Shown piece after piece: positions 3,928 through 31,412 of a stretch of DNA of 31,412 bases. The translations under genes and the position numbers were made by a program. Position 1 is the first letter of the stretch. Each line of letters opens with the position of its first letter. Source of the DNA: a virus; the IMG/VR virus record IMGVR_UViG_3300019124_000100, positions 1-31,412 of that record. The stretch is one strand, 5' to 3'. The notes beneath the pieces were generated by a model, which had not been told where the DNA came from, did not search any database, and worked only from the letters and a program-made list of their open reading frames with translations.

Positions 3928-4488
3928 GTGAATTTCGTTCAACCGATTCGAGATCCACGAACGATTGAAGACATCAAGAGCTACTTGAAGTCAACGAATG
4001 AGCGCGACTTCATTTTGTTCACCGTTGGCATCAATGTCGGCTTACGAATTTCAGATATTCTCCCACTTAGGGTAGCCGATGTTCGGGGAACCCACTTGGA
4101 CATCATTGAGAAAAAGACAGGTAAGCGTAAGCGGATCAAAATCAACAAAACGCTTCGATCTGAACTGGACGAGTACATCGCAGGGAAGCGGAGCTACGAA
4201 TACTTATTCAAGAGCCGCAATAAGAAACACCATACCGGGAAAAAGGACGAGCCGATCACCAGCAGCCAGGCATACAAAATACTTAGTCGAGTTGGTCAAC
4301 GGTTCGGAATACCGGATATCGGAACGCATTCATTAAGGAAGACGTTCGGGTACCATTTTTACCTGAAAACAAAGGATATAGCGTTACTAATGGAACTGTT
4401 CAACCACACCGAGCAGAAGGTGACTTTACGCTACATTGGCATCATTCAAGATACGCTGGACGATGCCTTAGACGACTTTTCACTGTAG
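3928..4488 (+). CDS. Tyrosine recombinase, catalytic domain only (186 aa)
   Basis: All catalytic residues of the tyrosine recombinase/XerC family are present: Arg40 in GLRISD, a lysine in the beta-hairpin EKKTGKRKR (62-69), His134 and Arg137 in THSLRKT, His160 in FNHTEQ and the nucleophile Tyr169 in LRYIG. The protein starts with GTG and is about half the length of a normal phage integrase. It lacks the N-terminal SAM-like DNA-binding domain and any arm-binding domain. Single-domain enzymes of this kind are found ahead of the terminase in some Bacillus/Paenibacillus phages. It is not adjacent to the att site at 30070, so it is unlikely to be the main integrase. It could resolve multimers or act on a site near cos. 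Confidence 0.85.
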   Translation: MNFVQPIRDPRTIEDIKSYLKSTNERDFILFTVGINVGLRISDILPLRVADVRGTHLDIIEKKTGKRKRIKINKTLRSELDEYIAGKRSYEYLFKSRNKKHHTGKKDEPITSSQAYKILSRVGQRFGIPDIGTHSLRKTFGYHFYLKTKDIALLMELFNHTEQKVTLRYIGIIQDTLDDALDDFSL

Positions 4489-24613: not shown

Positions 24614-24619
24614 TATAAT
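24614..24619 (+). promoter_or_regulatory. Putative promoter -10 (TATAAT)
   Basis: A perfect TATAAT lies about 32 bp before the ATG of the secreted accessory protein, right after the Tal-like gene. No good -35 hexamer is seen at 17 bp, so strength is uncertain. It would let the next gene be expressed apart from the late operon. Confidence 0.45.
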
Positions 24620-24651
24620 TGGTATTATCCCAATTTATGGAGTGGTTATTT

Positions 24652-25296
24652 ATGAAAAAATTTGTGTTCGGAATGTTTATTGGACTTTTACTTGCAATCC
24701 CTCTTTCTGTTGCAAGCGCAGAAGTAATATCCCTAATTGGTAAAAGAGTCCAAGGAAGTTATCCGGTCTTATTAAACAATCAAAGGGTAGAGAAGGATGC
24801 AATCGTGGTTGACGGAACCAGTTTCCTCCCGGTAAGGACAATTTCTGAATTGTTTAATGCTGATGTTGCGTTTGTTAATGGCGAGATTGTCATCACTCCG
24901 AAAGGCGGAATATATTTGACGGACGCGGAGAAGAAGGCTAAGGCGGAGGAATTAGCAAAAAAGGCCGCAGAGGAGCAAGCGAAATTTGATGAACTAACTC
25001 GTTTAAAAAACGAAAGGGATAATATCGTTTTAGAAACTGATAAGCTGCTTAAACAACTTCGACAAGATGAATACGAACTTGCGCATTTTAACGAAACCCT
25101 TGAGAACTTGAAGCCATCTCCGAATTTAAGTGAAGAAAGGGCGAGAAGTGAATACGAGCATGGTAAAGTAGCTTTGGAGAAAAAAATAGCCCTGTTGAAG
25201 GACAGTATTGCTGAAATAAGGCAAAAAATTAATGAGCTTGAAAAGCAAGCTGCGGGGCTTGATGAGCAAATAAAGCAAATGGAAAGCACTCCTTAA
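24652..25296 (+). CDS. Secreted protein: stalk-type (copper amine oxidase N-like) domain plus coiled coil
   Basis: ATG 24652 follows GGAGTGG. Residues 1 to about 24 are a signal peptide (KKFVFGMFIGLLLAIPLSVASA). Next comes a short beta domain: YPVLLNNQRVEKDAIVVDG, TSFLPVRTISELFNADV, GEIVITPKG. This is the copper-amine-oxidase N-terminal-like stalk domain so common in Paenibacillus secreted proteins. The rest (about 90 to 210) is a Lys/Glu-rich coiled coil. It is AT-rich, has its own -10 and its own terminator, and does not belong to the structural genes. It is therefore probably a lysogenic-conversion (moron) gene acting at the cell surface. Function unknown. Confidence 0.75.
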   Translation: MKKFVFGMFIGLLLAIPLSVASAEVISLIGKRVQGSYPVLLNNQRVEKDAIVVDGTSFLPVRTISELFNADVAFVNGEIVITPKGGIYLTDAEKKAKAEELAKKAAEEQAKFDELTRLKNERDNIVLETDKLLKQLRQDEYELAHFNETLENLKPSPNLSEERARSEYEHGKVALEKKIALLKDSIAEIRQKINELEKQAAGLDEQIKQMESTP

Positions 25297-25565: not shown

Positions 25566-26033
25566 ATGGTCAAGGAATTTGTAATGCACGTGTTTACTGC
25601 CGCCACGGCCAACAACGGTAAAGAGGTAGGCGTCGGCACACTCGCAGCACTGGTCGGACTTATCGCAACGGAGTACCTCGGGGGATGGGATAAGGGATTA
25701 CAGGTGCTTTTGCTCTTGATGGTTGCCGATTACGCGACAGGTGTGCTCGGGGCGATCAAGACGCGAACGGTAAACAGCGACGTAATGTTCTGGGGCGGGA
25801 TTCGCAAAATCGTCGTGCTCTTCGTGATTGGCCTCGCGGTTCAATTAGACCTGTGGGTTGGTAATAGCGCCCCGGTGTTTCGTACTGCGGCAATATACTT
25901 CTACGGCGGCCGCGAGGGTTTAAGCGTAGTCGAGAACCTCGGGACACTTGGCGTTCAACTGCCGGAAGGGATAAAGAAATTTCTTCAGCAGCTAAATCAG
26001 AAGGGTGAAGGGAATGAGGTGTCAAAGCGATGA
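25566..26033 (+). CDS. Phage holin (phi29/toxin-secretion holin type)
   Basis: ATG 25566 has GGAGGGG 8 nt upstream. The 155-aa product has membrane segments near VGTLAALVGLIATEYLGG, LQVLLLLMVADYATGVLGAI and KIVVLFVIGLAVQLDLWVG. The MVADYATGVLGAI...G..K motif is typical of the Phage_holin_4/TcdE group. It forms membrane lesions that release the amidase at the end of infection. It overlaps the amidase gene by 4 bp (ATGA). Confidence 0.88.
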   Translation: MVKEFVMHVFTAATANNGKEVGVGTLAALVGLIATEYLGGWDKGLQVLLLLMVADYATGVLGAIKTRTVNSDVMFWGGIRKIVVLFVIGLAVQLDLWVGNSAPVFRTAAIYFYGGREGLSVVENLGTLGVQLPEGIKKFLQQLNQKGEGNEVSKR

Positions 26034-26788
26034 AGCCAATTCTGATCATTGACCCCGGTCACGGCGGTACCGACTCGGGTGGCGGCTCGAACCAATACTT
26101 CAAGGAGAAGGATCTCGTTCTCGAAATTAGCCGGTATCAGGCGGAGCGATTCAAGCAGCTCGGCGTCGCGGTACAGATGACAAGGATGACCGATGAATAT
26201 CTGTCCGCCACTGAGCGCACCTTGCGCGTCCAGGACAGCGGGGCGAAGTTCTGCATCTCGAACCACATCAACAGTGCGGGAAATCCCTCAGCACGCGGCG
26301 TTGAGACAATACATTCGATTCACAACGATGGGAAGCTGGCCAAAGCGATTTTCGATTCGATCGTTAGCGCCGGCATGCACGGCCGCCGTGTGTTCATGAG
26401 GGCGTTGGAGAGTAACAAAGCCAAGGACTATTACTTCATGCACCGGGAGACCGGCAACGTAACGACGATTATTGTAGAATATGGGTTCGCATCGAACGAC
26501 GAGGACGCGCAGATGATGGTGAAATATTGGCGGGATTACGCGGAAGCCGTCGTAAGGGCATTTTGCCGATTCATCGACCATCCGTACACGCCGCCAACTC
26601 CCATCCCAGGATCCGAGGATACACCGGCGATTCAGCGCTCCGTTGCCGTCCTCCTGGACGGGAAACGGGCAGACGGAGGATACCTTATTAACGGGAAAGC
26701 GTATCTGCCTGCCAGGTTCTTCGCCGAAGTGTTTGGCGCGACTGTCGGCTGGTCGGGGGAGTACGTTGTGGTGGAGAGGAATAAATAG
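26030..26788 (+). CDS. N-acetylmuramoyl-L-alanine amidase endolysin with C-terminal stalk-type domain
   Basis: Residues 1 to about 185 are an Amidase_3 domain. Zinc ligands are His11 (DPGHGG), Glu26 and His79 (SNHIN); the catalytic Glu150 is in IIVEYGF. It cleaves the bond between MurNAc and L-Ala in peptidoglycan. After a Pro-rich linker (PYTPPTPIPGSEDTP), residues about 205 to 252 form a small domain (VAVLLDGKRADGGYLINGKA, YLPARFFAEVFGATVGW) of the copper-amine-oxidase N-like stalk type. This domain resembles that of the secreted protein at 24652 and probably binds the wall. No signal peptide, so release depends on the holin. Confidence 0.92.
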   Translation: MKPILIIDPGHGGTDSGGGSNQYFKEKDLVLEISRYQAERFKQLGVAVQMTRMTDEYLSATERTLRVQDSGAKFCISNHINSAGNPSARGVETIHSIHNDGKLAKAIFDSIVSAGMHGRRVFMRALESNKAKDYYFMHRETGNVTTIIVEYGFASNDEDAQMMVKYWRDYAEAVVRAFCRFIDHPYTPPTPIPGSEDTPAIQRSVAVLLDGKRADGGYLINGKAYLPARFFAEVFGATVGWSGEYVVVERNK

Positions 26789-26830: not shown

Positions 26831-26871
26831 CCCCCGCTGGCCGCCGTGTTGGCTGGCGGGGGGTTTTTTTT
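26831..26871 (+). terminator. Strong intrinsic terminator at the end of the lysis genes
   Basis: CCCCCGCTGGCC (26831-26842) pairs with GGCTGGCGGGGG (26851-26862), followed by eight T. It ends the late transcript. Confidence 0.9.
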
Positions 26872-27109
26872 ATTTCGGAATTATATTATAGAAATCACGA
26901 AGCATCTCGAGGGCTTCCGCCTTTGATATAATTTCAGTTTCGACCAATCCTCCATGGTTGGATTCTTTGTACCAAATCTGAATATTTTTCAAACGGGGTA
27001 ATTCGGAATACCATATGGCCGCTTGCTCAGGGTTGGTTGTTACAAGATCCACCTTGGAATATCCCTCAACGGTTAGAATACATACAAAAATTAATTGTTG
27101 CTCCCCCAT
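26870..27109 (-). CDS. Small protein of unknown function (79 aa)
   Basis: ATG 27109 is chosen because AGGGAGG lies about 12 nt upstream on the minus strand and the -10 box at 27151-27156 would leave an earlier TTG (27142) almost without a leader. The product is a compact alpha/beta sequence: LIFVCILTVEGYSKVDLVTT, NPEQAAIWYSEL, a beta stretch IQIWYKE, and SKAEALEMLRDFYNI. No family recognised. AT-rich, convergent with the amidase gene, with its own extended -10 promoter, so it is probably expressed in the lysogen. Confidence 0.65.
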   Translation of the reverse strand: MGEQQLIFVCILTVEGYSKVDLVTTNPEQAAIWYSELPRLKNIQIWYKESNHGGLVETEIISKAEALEMLRDFYNIIPK

Positions 27110-27150
27110 TATTAAATACGGCCTCCCTTTATTGATATACAATAAATGGA

Positions 27151-27176: not shown

Positions 27177-27398
27177 TCACCAAAAATCAGCGGAACTTAC
27201 GTCAGGATCAATCTCCCGAAGTGCACGAATTACTTTGGACCTTGTGGTTGTTCGCGGAATATATCCCTTGTCGTTACAAAGGTCAGAAACGGTATTCGGG
27301 CTTAACCCGGTGTGAGCCTCCAGCCATTTTTGAGACACCCCGTTATCATCCATCCATTTACCCAAACGGGTCCTCGGTTTCATCCAAGATAAGAACAC
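27177..27398 (-). CDS. Small helix-turn-helix (XRE/Cro-type) regulator, 73 aa
   Basis: The product RTRLGKWMDDNGVSQKWLEA followed by HTGLSPNTVSDLCND is a Cro/CI-type helix-turn-helix with little else. GTG 27398 follows AGAGGTG on the minus strand; ATG at residue 6 is an alternative. It lies upstream of, and in line with, the 79-aa gene and divergent from the FtsK module. It may control that module or bind the nearby repeat array. Its distance from the usual lysogeny region (left, outside the window) makes it unlikely to be the main phage repressor. Confidence 0.75.
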   Translation of the reverse strand: MFLSWMKPRTRLGKWMDDNGVSQKWLEAHTGLSPNTVSDLCNDKGYIPRTTTRSKVIRALREIDPDVSSADFW

Positions 27399-27510
27399 GT
27401 TATCACCTCTACATAATCAGAATGGACAATCTATTAGAATTCCATACCCTCAAATGTGTCGGAAACTAAGAATAATGGACAACCAGACTGACGTACGCTT
27501 TATCATCAAG

Positions 27511-27611
27511 CGGAATATTCCGGACATCATTCCAACCCCACTTCCGATCTATTGTTCCGAGCCTACCTTCCGGCAATCCTTCCGCGGCGGCATTCGCCAC
27601 GGAATATTCCG
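27511..27611 (+). repeat. Iteron-like array of TTCC(G) motifs every 12-13 bp
   Basis: TTCC or TTCCG starts at 27518, 27530, 27542, 27555, 27568, 27580 and 27607, with a degenerate TTCG at 27593: spacing 12, 12, 13, 13, 12, 13, 14. The array is bounded by two identical 12-bp palindromes, CGGAATATTCCG, at 27511-27522 and 27600-27611. The spacing is not a multiple of three, so it is not a protein repeat. It lies about 100 bp before the FtsK-type gene. It is a candidate replication origin, transfer origin or operator. Confidence 0.7.
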
Positions 27612-27705
27612 AACCGCGTAGGATCGCGCCTTCAGCCTTGTACAAAGTCATTCCGAGCCGGAGGAACTATCCTATCGGATACCAAGGGAAAAGGGGTGGT
27701 ACGCG

Positions 27706-29022
27706 TTGTTTCTTGAAGTCCTCGGCTGCGTGGCCGCCGGCGGACTGCTCGCGTATACGGCAATCGAGAAGAGCGGCACGGCGACAGACGCGGCAAAAAT
27801 CCAGCGCGTGGCAAAGAACTGCGGCCTGTACATCAACGAAGCCGGCAAGCAACGGACGATCCAGCCGCTTCGGCGGACGCATTACCCGTGGGGCGTCGAA
27901 TACGTCTTCCGGATACCGCTCGGCTTATCGTTCGACGACTTCGTCCGGAAGAAGCAACACCTCGAGGACGGCCTGAACCACAAACGCGGCTGGCTCGACT
28001 TGACGATCGACGACCTCCGCACGCTGCGTCTTGGCCCTGACATCTTGCAGCAGCTCCGGGACCTCATGACCGTAGCGAAGCACCGAAAGGAGATCCTGAT
28101 GGATTACGACGGTACGCTGCGGATCCGGATCTACCGGGAACCATTGTCTACGCTCGTGCTGTTTGACGACGCAACTCTGGCTAGCTGCAGCGGGTGGAAG
28201 GTGCTAATCGGGGATAGCCGGGAGGGGAGGATATACCATGATTTTGACCAGATCCCGCATATCGTTGTCGCCGGCACAACGCGATACGGCAAATCGGTGT
28301 TTTTGAAAGGCGTCGTGACGACGCTCACCGCGCGCCAGCCGGCCGCGGCGCAGTTCACACTCCTGGACTTGAAAGGCGGGCTCGCGTTCAATCGATTCCG
28401 TGATCTGAGGCAGGTGGTCACGGTCGCATCGAACGTCTCGGAGAGCGTCACCGCGCTCCAGCGGATCGAGCTCGAGATGAAGGAGCGGCAGGCGCAACTT
28501 CTCGCCAAAGGTTTCGAGGACATTACGGAAGCGGGGATAACGGAGCGGCATTTCGTCGTCATCGACGAGGGCGCGGAGCTGGCAAGTGCCGGCGAGACGG
28601 ACCCGCAGCTGAAGAAGCTGAAAATCGATTGTGAGCGGATCGTCGCGGAGATCGCGCGGATCGGCGGCGGTCTCGGGTACCGACTCATCTTCGCAACACA
28701 GTATCCGACTGGCGACACGCTCCCGCGGCAGGTGAAGCAGAATTGTGACGCCCGCCTCTGCTTCCGTCTCCCAACGGAGACGGCGAGCCGCGTCGTCCTG
28801 GACGAAGCGGGCGCAGAGCAGCTGCCGCTCATCAAGGGGCGGGGTATTTACCGGACGGACCGGAAGCAGATTGTTCAGACGCCATATATCGAGAATGGTT
28901 TCATCGACAAAACGATTCGGCCGCATGTCGCGATCCGGCCGAGGAAGGAGGCACCGCATGCTCCTGCAGCAGAAGAAGCTCCAGCGGGAAGAAGCTATAC
29001 TCTCGTCATTGAAGAAGCTTGA
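27706..29022 (+). CDS. FtsK/SpoIIIE (TraC/Tra coupling-type) DNA translocase ATPase
   Basis: The start is TTG 27706, 6 nt after AAGGGGTGG. The 438-aa product begins with one membrane segment (FLEVLGCVAAGGLLAYTAI). It has an N-terminal alpha/beta domain and then the FtsK motor: Walker A GTTRYGKS (residues 190-197), the LLDLKGGLAFNRF motif, Walker B FVVIDEGAEL (287-288 DE) and RLIFATQYPTGDTLPRQVKQN. It ends in a linker and IEEA tail. It lacks the FtsK gamma domain. Such proteins pump double-stranded DNA or couple it to a transfer apparatus in integrative and plasmid elements. Its stop lies 65 bp inside the next gene. The role in a phage is unclear. Confidence 0.85.
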   Translation: MFLEVLGCVAAGGLLAYTAIEKSGTATDAAKIQRVAKNCGLYINEAGKQRTIQPLRRTHYPWGVEYVFRIPLGLSFDDFVRKKQHLEDGLNHKRGWLDLTIDDLRTLRLGPDILQQLRDLMTVAKHRKEILMDYDGTLRIRIYREPLSTLVLFDDATLASCSGWKVLIGDSREGRIYHDFDQIPHIVVAGTTRYGKSVFLKGVVTTLTARQPAAAQFTLLDLKGGLAFNRFRDLRQVVTVASNVSESVTALQRIELEMKERQAQLLAKGFEDITEAGITERHFVVIDEGAELASAGETDPQLKKLKIDCERIVAEIARIGGGLGYRLIFATQYPTGDTLPRQVKQNCDARLCFRLPTETASRVVLDEAGAEQLPLIKGRGIYRTDRKQIVQTPYIENGFIDKTIRPHVAIRPRKEAPHAPAAEEAPAGRSYTLVIEEA

Positions 29023-29569
29023 TTATATGAGCCGTAGCCAAATCCAGCGGCTGCATGGGCTGGCCGGCGATCGTAATGCACGTCGAGTACTCGCCAACAT
29101 GCGGCATCTGCTGGGCTCGTTCCGCGGCGAGACAGGGGAGACGATCTTTTACCTCAACAAGCTCGGCCGCGAGCGCTCAGGCGCCGAGAAGGTGCGCCAG
29201 CGGATCGCCCAGGTCGGCCATTACCTGATGCGGAATGATGCATATATCCATTACGGCGCGCCGGAGGCGTGGAAGAACGAGATGCGGTTTCGAGTCGAGG
29301 GGGCTTCGCTGACGATCGTCGCCGACGCGTACTTCCAGTATGGTGGCCGGCGGTATTTTCTCGAGGTCGACCATCTGCAGCACATGGCGAAGAACCAGGA
29401 GAAAATCGCGAAATACAAACAGCTTCGCGACATCGGCGTGCTACAGGAGCGGCTCAAATACTTCCCGCGGCTCGTTTGGGTGACACTCACGGAGGCGCGC
29501 CGGCGGCAGCTGGCCGAATGGAGCGAAGGTCTGGACGTAACGATCAATCTCTGGAACGAAATCAAATAA
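28958..29569 (+). CDS. Replication-relaxation family protein
   Basis: ATG 28958 follows AAGGAGG at 6 nt and overlaps the end of the translocase gene. The first 60 residues are a winged-helix domain (REEAILSSLKKLDYMSRSQI, QRLHGLAGDRNARRVLANMR). The C-terminal part is a nuclease-like alpha/beta region (YFLEVDHLQHMAKNQEKIAKY, RLVWVTLTEARR) seen in the replication-relaxation (plasmid and ICE) family. These proteins are linked to plasmid or element replication initiation. The pairing with an FtsK-type motor is also found on plasmids and in some Bacillus/Paenibacillus prophages. Activity unproven. Confidence 0.8.
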   Translation: MLLQQKKLQREEAILSSLKKLDYMSRSQIQRLHGLAGDRNARRVLANMRHLLGSFRGETGETIFYLNKLGRERSGAEKVRQRIAQVGHYLMRNDAYIHYGAPEAWKNEMRFRVEGASLTIVADAYFQYGGRRYFLEVDHLQHMAKNQEKIAKYKQLRDIGVLQERLKYFPRLVWVTLTEARRRQLAEWSEGLDVTINLWNEIK

Positions 29570-29581
29570 GGAGGGATTCAC

Positions 29582-30049
29582 ATGCAGGTGACGATTGGAG
29601 TGAAGGGTGGGGAGAGGAAGGTGCTGTTCGAACCAGCGGCCGTGGCCGACGCCGCGACGCCGCTGATCGACAGCAGGCGAATCGATTCGAAGGTGCGCGC
29701 ATATCTCGGCCACGCTGTGCCGCTTCTGGCGGTCGCGGGGGTGGCACTTCAGGCATCGAGGGCGTCGGCGCACGAGGCGATCATGGCGATCGCTCCGGAG
29801 GCTGTGCCGGCGGTGGGCGGCGCACTGAAAGGTAAGATCATGCACGCATTCGATCCGCTGATCGACTTAATCGTGACGCTGTCGTATCCAGTGGCCGGGG
29901 TCATGATTGCCGGCGGTTGCCTATTTATCATGGTCGGAAGTCGTGATCGCGGGATGCAGCTCCTCCAGAATGCGGCGATTGGGTACATTTTGATGCAGCT
30001 GTCGCCATTGATGCTGGATTTATTAGTTGGAGTCGGAGAAGGCATTTAG
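29582..30049 (+). CDS. VirB2/TrbC-like small membrane protein (155 aa)
   Basis: ATG 29582 follows AAGGAGGG. After a hydrophilic N-terminus there is a hydrophobic segment (AVPLLAVAGVALQASRASAH), then two long membrane helices (LIVTLSYPVAGVMIAGGCLF and AAIGYILMQLSPLMLDLLVG). Between the two helices is a short polar loop GSRDRGMQ. This resembles small TrbC/VirB2-like pilin or channel proteins that accompany transfer ATPases. It is the last gene of the module and ends 9 bp before the TAA of the truncated spoVR frame. Assignment is tentative. Confidence 0.6.
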   Translation: MQVTIGVKGGERKVLFEPAAVADAATPLIDSRRIDSKVRAYLGHAVPLLAVAGVALQASRASAHEAIMAIAPEAVPAVGGALKGKIMHAFDPLIDLIVTLSYPVAGVMIAGGCLFIMVGSRDRGMQLLQNAAIGYILMQLSPLMLDLLVGVGEGI

Positions 30050-30057
30050 TCTTCATA

Positions 30058-30249
30058 TTACCGATGGTTTCTTTTGCCGAAGCTCCAGTGGCTGAACCGG
30101 GTCGGCATGCCGTACGCCCCGAACGTGTAAATGATGTCCGCGGGGCAAATTTCGTAGCGCATCGGGTAGAAATCAAGCCCGAAATTCCGCGCGATGTCCG
30201 TAATTTCTTCGATCGCCGCTTCCAGCTGCTTTTGTTCCTCTGCGAGCAT
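30058..30249 (-). pseudogene. spoVR: spoVR, 5' fragment interrupted by the prophage
   Basis: The 63-codon frame encodes the conserved beginning of SpoVR (about 465 residues when complete): [20 protein letters not shown] followed by [17 protein letters not shown]. This near-invariant stretch is easily recognised. After residue 59 the match ends and the frame closes with RNHR and TAA, which lie in prophage sequence. SpoVR acts in spore cortex formation in Bacillus subtilis; its enterobacterial relative is YcgB. The gene follows yhbH by 8 bp, as in the known prkA-yhbH-spoVR arrangement. The rest of spoVR should lie at the left end of the prophage. As it stands, no complete protein can be made. 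Confidence 0.9.
30060..30090. other. Right prophage/chromosome junction (attR region)
   Basis: Reading from the right on the minus strand, spoVR codons agree with the family through SFGK (AAA at 30073-30075) and then give RNHR and a stop. The crossover is therefore within or just right of about 30070-30090. The core sequence cannot be set without the left junction. Confidence 0.7.
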
Positions 30250-30257
30250 CGATTGGC

Positions 30258-31412
30258 TTACCCCCCCGCGGTCTCCTTTTTGCCGAAAAACGCCCGCAGC
30301 GCCTTCAGCACTTCGCCCTTCTCCTTAATGATGCTGTACATGAAGCCGGGCTCGCCGATGTTGCGGTACGCGGACATGAGCGTGCTGCTTCGGTTGTACT
30401 GGTTCACTTCGCCGTAGCCGAACAAATTGCACCGCTTCAGCAGCTCCTTGATGAGCTTCACGCAGCGCTCGTTGTCGCTCGTCAAATTGTCGCCGTCGGA
30501 GAAGTGGAACGGGTAAATGTTGTACTGCGACGGCGGATATTTCGTGTCGATTAGCTCGAGCGCCTTCTGGTACGCCGACGAGCAGATCGTGCCGCCGCTT
30601 TCGCCTTTCGTGAAAAACTCCTCTTCGGTGACGACCTTCGCTTCGGTGTGGTGGGCGATGAACACGATTTCGACGTGCTCGTATTTACGGCGCAGGAAGC
30701 GGGTCATCCAGAAGAAGAAGCTGCGCGCGCAGTACTTTTCGAAGGAGCCCATCGAGCCGCTCGTATCCATCATCGCGATGATGAGGGCGCTGGACTCCGG
30801 CTTTTGGATCGTCTCCCACGTCTTGAACCGCAGGTCGTCCGGCGTGATGCCGCCGAAGCCGCGCACGCCCTGCGTCGCGTTGCGCTTCAAGTTCTCGAGC
30901 AGCGTGCGCTTGCGGTCGATGTTGCTCATCATGCCCTTCTTGCGCACGTCGGTGAAGCGGATATGCTCCGTTTGGACGATCTGCTTCTCTTTCCGCTTCA
31001 GGTCCGGCAGCTCCCAATCCTCGAACAGGACGTTCTCGAGCTCCTCCATGTCGACTTCGGCCTCGTACACGTCGTCGCCGGGCTTGTCGCCGGCGCCGCC
31101 CTCGCCGCTGCCCTGCTGCGCCGGCTGCGGGTCGCGCCCGAGCACGTCGCCGACCTTGCTGTCTCCGTCGCCTTGGCCGACGTGCTTGCTCTTGGTGTAG
31201 TTGAAGCGGAAGCGGAATTCGTCGAGGCTCTTGATCGGAACCCGCACTTGCTTCCGGCCGTCCGACAGGATAATGCTTTCGTCGGACACGATGTCGGACA
31301 GGTTTCGTTTTAACGCGTCTTTCACGCGCTGCTGATGCCGGGATTGGTCTTCGTACCCTTTGCGGTGGAGCGACCAATCCTCCCGGGAAACGATAAATAA
31401 CGGCTCCGTCAT
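30258..31412 (-). CDS. yhbH: Sporulation protein YhbH (DUF444 family)
   Basis: The 384-aa frame starts with the typical [20 protein letters not shown] at the very edge of the window and is complete. It has a basic N-terminal region, a Gly/Asp-rich low-complexity linker ([20 protein letters not shown]) and a C-terminal von Willebrand A-like domain. That domain carries a MIDAS motif MMDTSGSMG and the following Thr/Asp residues (GGTICSS, HFSDGDN). YhbH is made in sporulation and starvation and is genetically linked to the PrkA kinase (compare enterobacterial YeaG/YeaH). GC content is high and matches a host chromosome. Confidence 0.95.

Follow-up and report, generated by a model that had tools for sequence, protein, structure and literature searches.

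The closest described counterparts of the locus analysed here are found among mobilisation systems and among phages and prophages. MOBC relaxases combine a winged helix with a PD-(D/E)XK domain (PMC12857230), the Replic_Relax family is listed as the MobC relaxase class in the CONJscan assignment (PMC5357655), and in the MOBC origin of transfer (oriT) of pAD1 a distance of 70-120 bp separates nic from a set of five direct repeats (PMC12857230). TcpA-type coupling proteins, which resemble FtsK more than they do VirD4-type proteins (PMC12857230), belong to pCW3 and to integrative conjugative and integrative mobilisable elements (ICEs and IMEs) of Firmicutes, and in streptococci the relaxase of an IME is often accompanied by a coupling protein of this type (PMC5357655). 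That prophages can be conjugative is an idea already known: the Streptococcus prophage Phi1207.3 is reported to move by conjugation (PMC4260502), a likeness that we draw from its description. Finally, Bacillus and Geobacillus phages (the Andromeda group, Pony and PK5.2) carry FtsK, Replic_Relax and TrbC genes in that order. We have analysed a window of 31,412 bp, the whole of IMG/VR virus record IMGVR_UViG_3300019124_000100, which covers the right part of a siphovirus prophage, runs on into host DNA and contains the same three genes in the same order.

Our best explanation, held tentatively and with slightly less than even confidence, is that the block at 27177-30049 is an accessory mobilisation-type cassette, comprising an oriT-like site, a relaxase, a coupling pump and a pilin-like subunit. 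It is the best fit because a relaxase family member, a coupling-type pump, a pilin-like protein and an oriT-like site occur together. By analogy with known systems, the Replic_Relax protein (a MOBC-like relaxase) would bind and probably nick the oriT-like site, composed of iterons and a hairpin; a membrane-anchored, TcpA-like motor would couple to the relaxase and pump DNA; the VirB2-like small membrane protein would form an exit or dock to one; and the divergent XRE protein would repress the cassette. The substrate would be the excised or plasmid-form element, and its most likely destination another cell, reached through a minimal device or the pore of a helper, in the manner of IMEs. The gene trio as such is already known from phage annotations; the cis-site is new here, and the reading of the trio as a relaxase unit appears to be so. 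In titles and the openings of abstracts we found no published account of the trio as a relaxase-coupling-protein unit, or of the hairpin, and neither the cis-site nor the relaxase reading was found in the available descriptions of the Andromeda group, PK5.2 and Pony.

The argument rests on features that we computed, namely the gene content, the conserved gene order and overlap, the families of the relaxase and the pump, a predicted nuclease fold and a conserved, covarying cis-site. The initial annotation had placed an FtsK-like, a replication-relaxation and a VirB2/TrbC-like gene at 27706-30049, and these coordinates proved exact, with three open and tightly packed frames. The central gene (28958-29569, + strand, ATG start, 203 aa) overlaps the pump gene by 65 bp, and its product matches Pfam PF13814 (Replic_Relax) above the cut-off (E 3.9e-13) over the full span of 1-191/191. 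An AlphaFold model built with 60 alignment rows (pLDDT 97.1) predicts a winged helix that leads into an alpha-beta core; D123, E136 and D138 sit on neighbouring strands of this core. In Foldseek the only three matches with E < 0.001 were Cdn1 (twice) and VC1899. Next in rank came Can2, Bax1 and endonucleases of restriction or nicking type, and we take all of these to be nucleases of the PD-(D/E)XK kind. VIA-align listed MarR-type winged helices throughout, which left the nuclease half out of that comparison. The residues H88, R92, E108, D123, E136, D138, M143, N146, K149 and Y153 are invariant across the 60 rows. The catalytic Asp, the ExE/D pair and the Lys that follows have their roles in the MOBC motif; D123 and E136-x-D138, invariant in 79 of 79 sequences, align with the PD and ExE of MobC, in what is a weak comparison.

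As the MOBC yardstick we used a substitute plasmid, the mob region being broken in both the CloDF13 record and the first substitute. The MobC protein of this MOBC-typed plasmid matches PF13814 over the same 1-191/191 span (1.2e-21), placing it and the window protein in one Pfam family, and its gene directly follows that of its coupling protein. The likeness to the CloDF13-type MobB-MobC pair extends from the family to the gene order and to the combination of winged helix and PD-(D/E)XK nuclease fold, which in the window protein is predicted. The systems differ in that the coupling protein there is of the TraM-recognition type and here TcpA/FtsK-like, while in the cassette the MobC lysine is not conserved and a pilin-like gene is added, and phages are among its carriers.

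The pump gene (27706-29022, + strand) starts with TTG and is an open frame of 438 aa, the product of which matches Pfam FtsK_SpoIIIE above the cut-off (E 1.3e-17). When a profile of 31 pump relatives was compared with solved structures, the first match was the DNA translocase coupling protein 6o1z (3.8e-44), presumably the TcpA coupling protein of pCW3, with FtsK 2ius at 5e-32. The protein thus has an FtsK/SpoIIIE ATPase domain with TcpA as its nearest relative of solved structure. It differs from TcpA-type systems in standing here without a known conjugation operon or helper. One hydrophobic stretch, judged by eye, is a candidate for an N-terminal membrane anchor of the pump. At one related locus (L126), pump and relaxase are fused in a single frame of 613 aa.

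The third gene (29582-30049, + strand) encodes a small VirB2/TrbC-like membrane protein of 155 aa, with what appears to be a long leader followed by two hydrophobic helices, that matches PHROG 5422 (E 9.7e-30). Its model, of middling pLDDT (72), places helices at 36-67, 79-117 and 121-154, and the leader cleavage site was judged by eye; in size and predicted helix pattern the protein resembles VirB2-like pilins. In the phages D6E, BpsM-61 and TP-84 the pilin-like gene is instead paired with a PHROG 5156 protein of 718-754 aa, which replaces pump and relaxase (L150 3297-7441, L151 1761-4352 and L003 5857-8396). The D6E pair lies between endolysin and integrase and adjoins an actin-like partition gene. 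No hairpin of the kind described below was found in the stretches of TP-84, D6E and BpsM-61 that we examined, which have the pilin-like gene and no relaxase.

Upstream of the pump gene lies a control region bounded by a divergent XRE/Cro-C1 regulator gene (27177-27398, - strand, 73 aa; HTH_26 1.7e-5). Two direct repeats containing TGGACAA (27414-27429 and 27467-27482, + strand) are probable sites for this regulator; across 51 regions GGACAA occurs 23 times against 2.6 expected. The repeat array of the initial annotation is real: six TTCC iterons on the + strand, starting at 27518, 27530, 27542, 27555, 27568 and 27580 (27518-27584), are spaced by 12, 12, 13, 13 and 12 bp, whereas none of 2000 shuffles had more than four copies, and no other 4-mer forms a chain of five or more copies anywhere in the window. 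The array is flanked by identical 12-bp palindromes, CGGAATATTCCG, at 27511-27522 and 27600-27611. The iterons are strong in the window and in L008 alone, with six copies each, and L008 carries the same palindrome pair. Three or more iterons are found at 36 of 95 loci, as compared with about 12 expected.

Between the array and the pump gene, 40 nt before the pump start, is a hairpin or dyad, ACTATCC-TATC-GGATA (27666-27681, + strand), that is our candidate nick or recognition site. Hairpins of this kind are present in 73 of 128 distinct upstream regions, compared with a mean of 0.45 and a maximum of 2 in 20 shuffles. Among ACTAT-anchored contexts, for which pairing was not required, 72 of 90 pair, whereas swapping the 3' arms among loci gave 13.8 (maximum 24); when other stems were allowed, an AC-led stem of at least 6 bp occurred in 57 of 125 regions versus 2.25. 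The stem sequences vary from locus to locus (TATCC, TATTCT, TATTAC, TATCTA, TGTTTT, TCTTTAC), so the two arms change in concert. A single mismatch, of whatever kind, was permitted, and 48 distinct stems contained no G-T pair and five other mismatches, which points to DNA and not RNA; an RNA leader hairpin was set aside as the main reading on the same count. Across 41 non-redundant loci, the stem class correlates with the relaxase (Mantel r 0.263, 0/500 permutations), and with its winged helix at 0.295, while the correlation with the XRE protein is 0.131 and falls to 0.032 as a partial correlation given the relaxase. The combination is new: iterons with a hairpin that covaries across relatives and tracks the DNA-binding domain of Replic_Relax more than the repressor. 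In the window 82-148 bp separate the iterons from the hairpin, which recalls the repeat-to-site distance of the pAD1 oriT, although the distance here is measured to the hairpin and not to a mapped nick, and few relatives show a clear array. From its sequence, the upstream DNA appears to be an oriT-like site made of iterons and a short hairpin.

The hairpin could also be a mere operator or 5'-leader of the operon, in a cassette that has no oriT, a minority possibility in our estimate. It lies mostly 24-57 nt before the pump start codon, near the ribosome-binding site, and a MarR-like winged helix could bind such a dyad as a dimer. Yet it is present at loci without a nearby XRE gene (L071-L073 and L098) and in two phages (L002 and L152), and the lack of G-T pairs in the 48 stems makes an RNA structure unlikely. 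The XRE-less loci, together with the weaker tracking of the stem by XRE, likewise weaken an XRE operator as its sole role. If it is the relaxase that binds the dyad, the operator and the oriT reading are equally compatible with it.

We searched 50,697 phage records and 72,556 plasmid records by tblastn, and found Replic_Relax in 57 and 11, respectively; the pump was found in 62 phage records at E 1e-20 and the small protein in 50 at E 1. Contig scans added 62 loci from genome contigs and the best 80 of 178 from viral contigs. The resulting comparison covers 150 records, including the window and some duplicates (L004 repeats the window and was dropped from the upstream-region and hairpin counts; L070 repeats L005), and 149 of them have the Replic_Relax gene. 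As the loci were retrieved by the relaxase gene, these 149 are silent on pumps or pilins that occur without it. An adjacent pump is present at 147 of them, a pilin-like gene at 134 and both at 133, and the module is widespread; a divergent XRE gene accompanies 115, and all four genes are present at 105. Several of the missing genes belong to loci cut by contig ends. Among named phages, Geobacillus phage PK5.2 has the block between endolysin and integrase, as in the window, and Leo2 has it outside the lysis-integrase slot.

The cassette is accessory and does not belong to the constant genes of the late region. Among 20 virus records with the portal or terminase gene of the window, chosen from 86 loci (6 + 80), 19 lack it, although some may be fragments; the one record that has it is also alone in having the pilin-like gene. 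In the record with the closest portal (91%), which may itself be a fragment, a tblastn search of the last 7.3 kb for the cassette proteins gave no match. The same contrast is seen in published genomes: phages 268TH002 and 268TH007 are 96% identical and differ mainly by a 2,525-bp block, which in 268TH007 consists of these four kinds of gene, the fourth called hypothetical, and is absent from 268TH002 (PMC9476937). The gaps in 268TH002 and in the 19 records imply that the cassette is dispensable for phage replication, which tells against an explanation that we consider unlikely, namely a maintenance or replication-initiation module in which Replic_Relax nicks the hairpin for rolling-circle or concatemer replication while the other two proteins see to the organisation or segregation of the replicon. 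The PHROG name of the Replic_Relax protein, replication initiation protein, agrees with such a role, as do the position of the pair near partition genes on plasmids and the interpretation, in the Novomoskovsk paper, of these phage genes as plasmid replication/segregation remnants (PMC9658697). The best structural match of the pump, however, is a coupling protein.

An accessory block with its own regulator, adjoining the lysis/att slot, might also be a moron for superinfection exclusion or host takeover, its membrane pump and nuclease destroying or blocking incoming DNA. Moron genes collect beside the lysis and att slot, and PHROGs class the pump as a moron. We regard this as very improbable: the five plasmids of Priestia filamentosa CP015323 and CP015325-CP015328 (a single accession series) have one copy each, which would be odd for a trans-acting defence, and such a defence would not be expected to have a covarying cis-site in step with its nuclease. 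In PADLOC the pump had generic matches only (SspH, mad8 and weaker ones) and the other two proteins had none, and a known defence system was rejected on this basis.

The initial annotation further proposed a plasmid or transfer lifestyle for the excised element, a claim that stands in part. The accessory status supports it, as do plasmid and transfer homologues: the MOBC relaxase family in Pfam, the pCW3-like pump, the copies on plasmids and the parM and ribbon-helix-helix genes ahead of the module at six loci. Among the scanned window genes, which come from a partial prophage record, we found no replication-initiator or partition gene, and a plain plasmid replicon was rejected. An IME has a relaxase or coupling protein of its own and lacks a mating pore; relaxase-like and coupling-like genes are present here, and no pore gene was found among the genes scanned in this partial prophage.

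Several observations weigh against a mobilisation cassette. VirB4 and other mating-pore genes were likewise not found among the scanned window genes. The small protein scores below the Pfam cut-off for T4SS_pilin (E 0.052; 14.1 vs 26.6 bits), and its relatives, which peak at 5.8e-5 for TrbC/VIRB2 and 1.2e-4 for T4SS_pilin, stay under the cut-offs as well, the best of them reaching 23.7 bits where the curated Pfam score for the VirB2/TrbC pilin is 27.9. The lysine that follows ExE in MobC is not conserved in Replic_Relax, the invariant K149 sitting further on, and when the relaxase profile was aligned directly to MobC by hhalign the match was weak (E 0.14). Sequence searches of the PDB with the relaxase profile and with the pilin profile gave no credible match. 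Four or more iterons occur at just 5 of 95 loci (0.7 expected), and the hairpin could be a regulatory dyad. The pilin-like protein tracks the stem class best of all (0.329 vs 0.263 for the relaxase), so the relaxase is one candidate among others for the specificity partner of the hairpin. The cassette is also carried by isolated phages for which no integrase is listed in its vicinity. Finally, a Priestia plasmid that carries pump and relaxase has, besides these, MobP2, a VirD4-type protein and VirB4; its pump-relaxase pair adjoins partition genes outside the tra operon, and a search for a pilin-like gene behind the pair found none.

That plasmid and these isolated phages cut against simple conjugation, and a destination inside the cell is therefore possible. 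The same nick-and-pump device might act within one cell, driving the genome of a phage, or a plasmid, through the sporulation septum in the manner of SpoIIIE, and so save the element from loss with the mother cell. All carriers in our two genome samples have the spore-coat marker spoIVA: 25 of 25 in a family sample of 261 genomes (196/261 overall; Fisher 0.0005, uncorrected for kinship) and all 14 in a sample of 398 genomes of the class (267/398 overall; Fisher 0.003, likewise uncorrected), or 38 carriers in total, one genome being in both samples. The cassette is moreover carried by plasmids and by temperate and other phages of spore-formers, and parM-like and ribbon-helix-helix genes precede it at six loci (L071-L073, L091, L098 and L099). 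Such a host range may nevertheless be plain phylogeny, with non-sporulators perhaps clustered in few lineages; two phage records with the relaxase gene (OR670591 and OR670592) list Staphylococcus aureus as host, an exception to the spore-formers; and nuclease and pilin would be superfluous for SpoIIIE-type pumping. We rate delivery to the forespore as rather unlikely.

A mobilisation unit could explain why one cassette is common to phages and plasmids of spore-formers. It is conceivable, if doubtful, that a self-contained oriT-relaxase-pump-pilin device, its recognition hairpins covarying, is common to a large set of phages and plasmids of Bacillales and moves their DNA through membranes without a phage particle, whether from cell to cell or into the forespore. 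If so, phage DNA would have a second, particle-free route, which would blur the lines between phage, plasmid and integrative element. Dozens of Bacillus phages have these genes annotated piecemeal, as a translocase, a replication protein and a hypothetical protein, and the covarying hairpin supplies specificity classes for direct testing.

The rest of the window agrees with a prophage setting. Its phage genes include terminase, portal, protease, capsid, tail, holin and amidase, and the right end runs from holin and amidase through a terminator-like sequence, a 90-aa open reading frame (ORF, - strand) and the XRE gene (- strand) to the intergenic control region, pump, Replic_Relax and small membrane protein. 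The cassette accordingly lies, as first annotated, between the lysis genes and the end of the prophage, which falls in spoVR. The 90-aa ORF (26870-27142, - strand), between the lysis genes and XRE, has no credible family match. The amidase (26030-26788) ends in a Cu_amine_oxidN1 domain, and the protein just upstream (24619-25296) weakly matches the same domain. A tyrosine recombinase of 186 aa (3928-4488, + strand; PF00589 4e-20) precedes the terminase, away from the right end, and serine recombinases are found at the att side in some cassette relatives.

After the small membrane protein gene come host genes: a spoVR fragment (30058-30249, - strand) that corresponds to the N-terminal part, positions 3-60 of 407 in PF04293 (E 4e-20), and a DUF444/YhbH ORF (yhbH; 30258-31412, - strand) identified by Pfam. 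As the right end is thus host DNA, with the SpoVR N-terminus followed by YhbH, we infer attR, the junction of prophage and host spoVR, at approximately 30055-30075, where the SpoVR N-terminus ends. The record begins inside phage genes, so that attL and the integrase that would be expected to adjoin it are not in the window, and the first 5 kb and 29000-31412 have no 14-bp word in common. The prophage interrupts spoVR after about 60 codons; vrin of Geobacillus is a prophage that interrupts the same gene (PMC4191935). The likeness to vrin/skin-type elements lies in the insertion site, a sporulation gene; the att-side integrase falls outside the window, and the prophage is a candidate for developmentally timed excision. 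Other cassette prophages end inside yhbH, some 44-50 codons from its 3' end (L013 11209-11361, L014 11575-11727 and L026 11153-11308), and in L081 (1733-1894) the yhbH 3' end adjoins a serine recombinase. The yhbH-spoVR sporulation locus has been struck repeatedly by cassette-bearing prophages.

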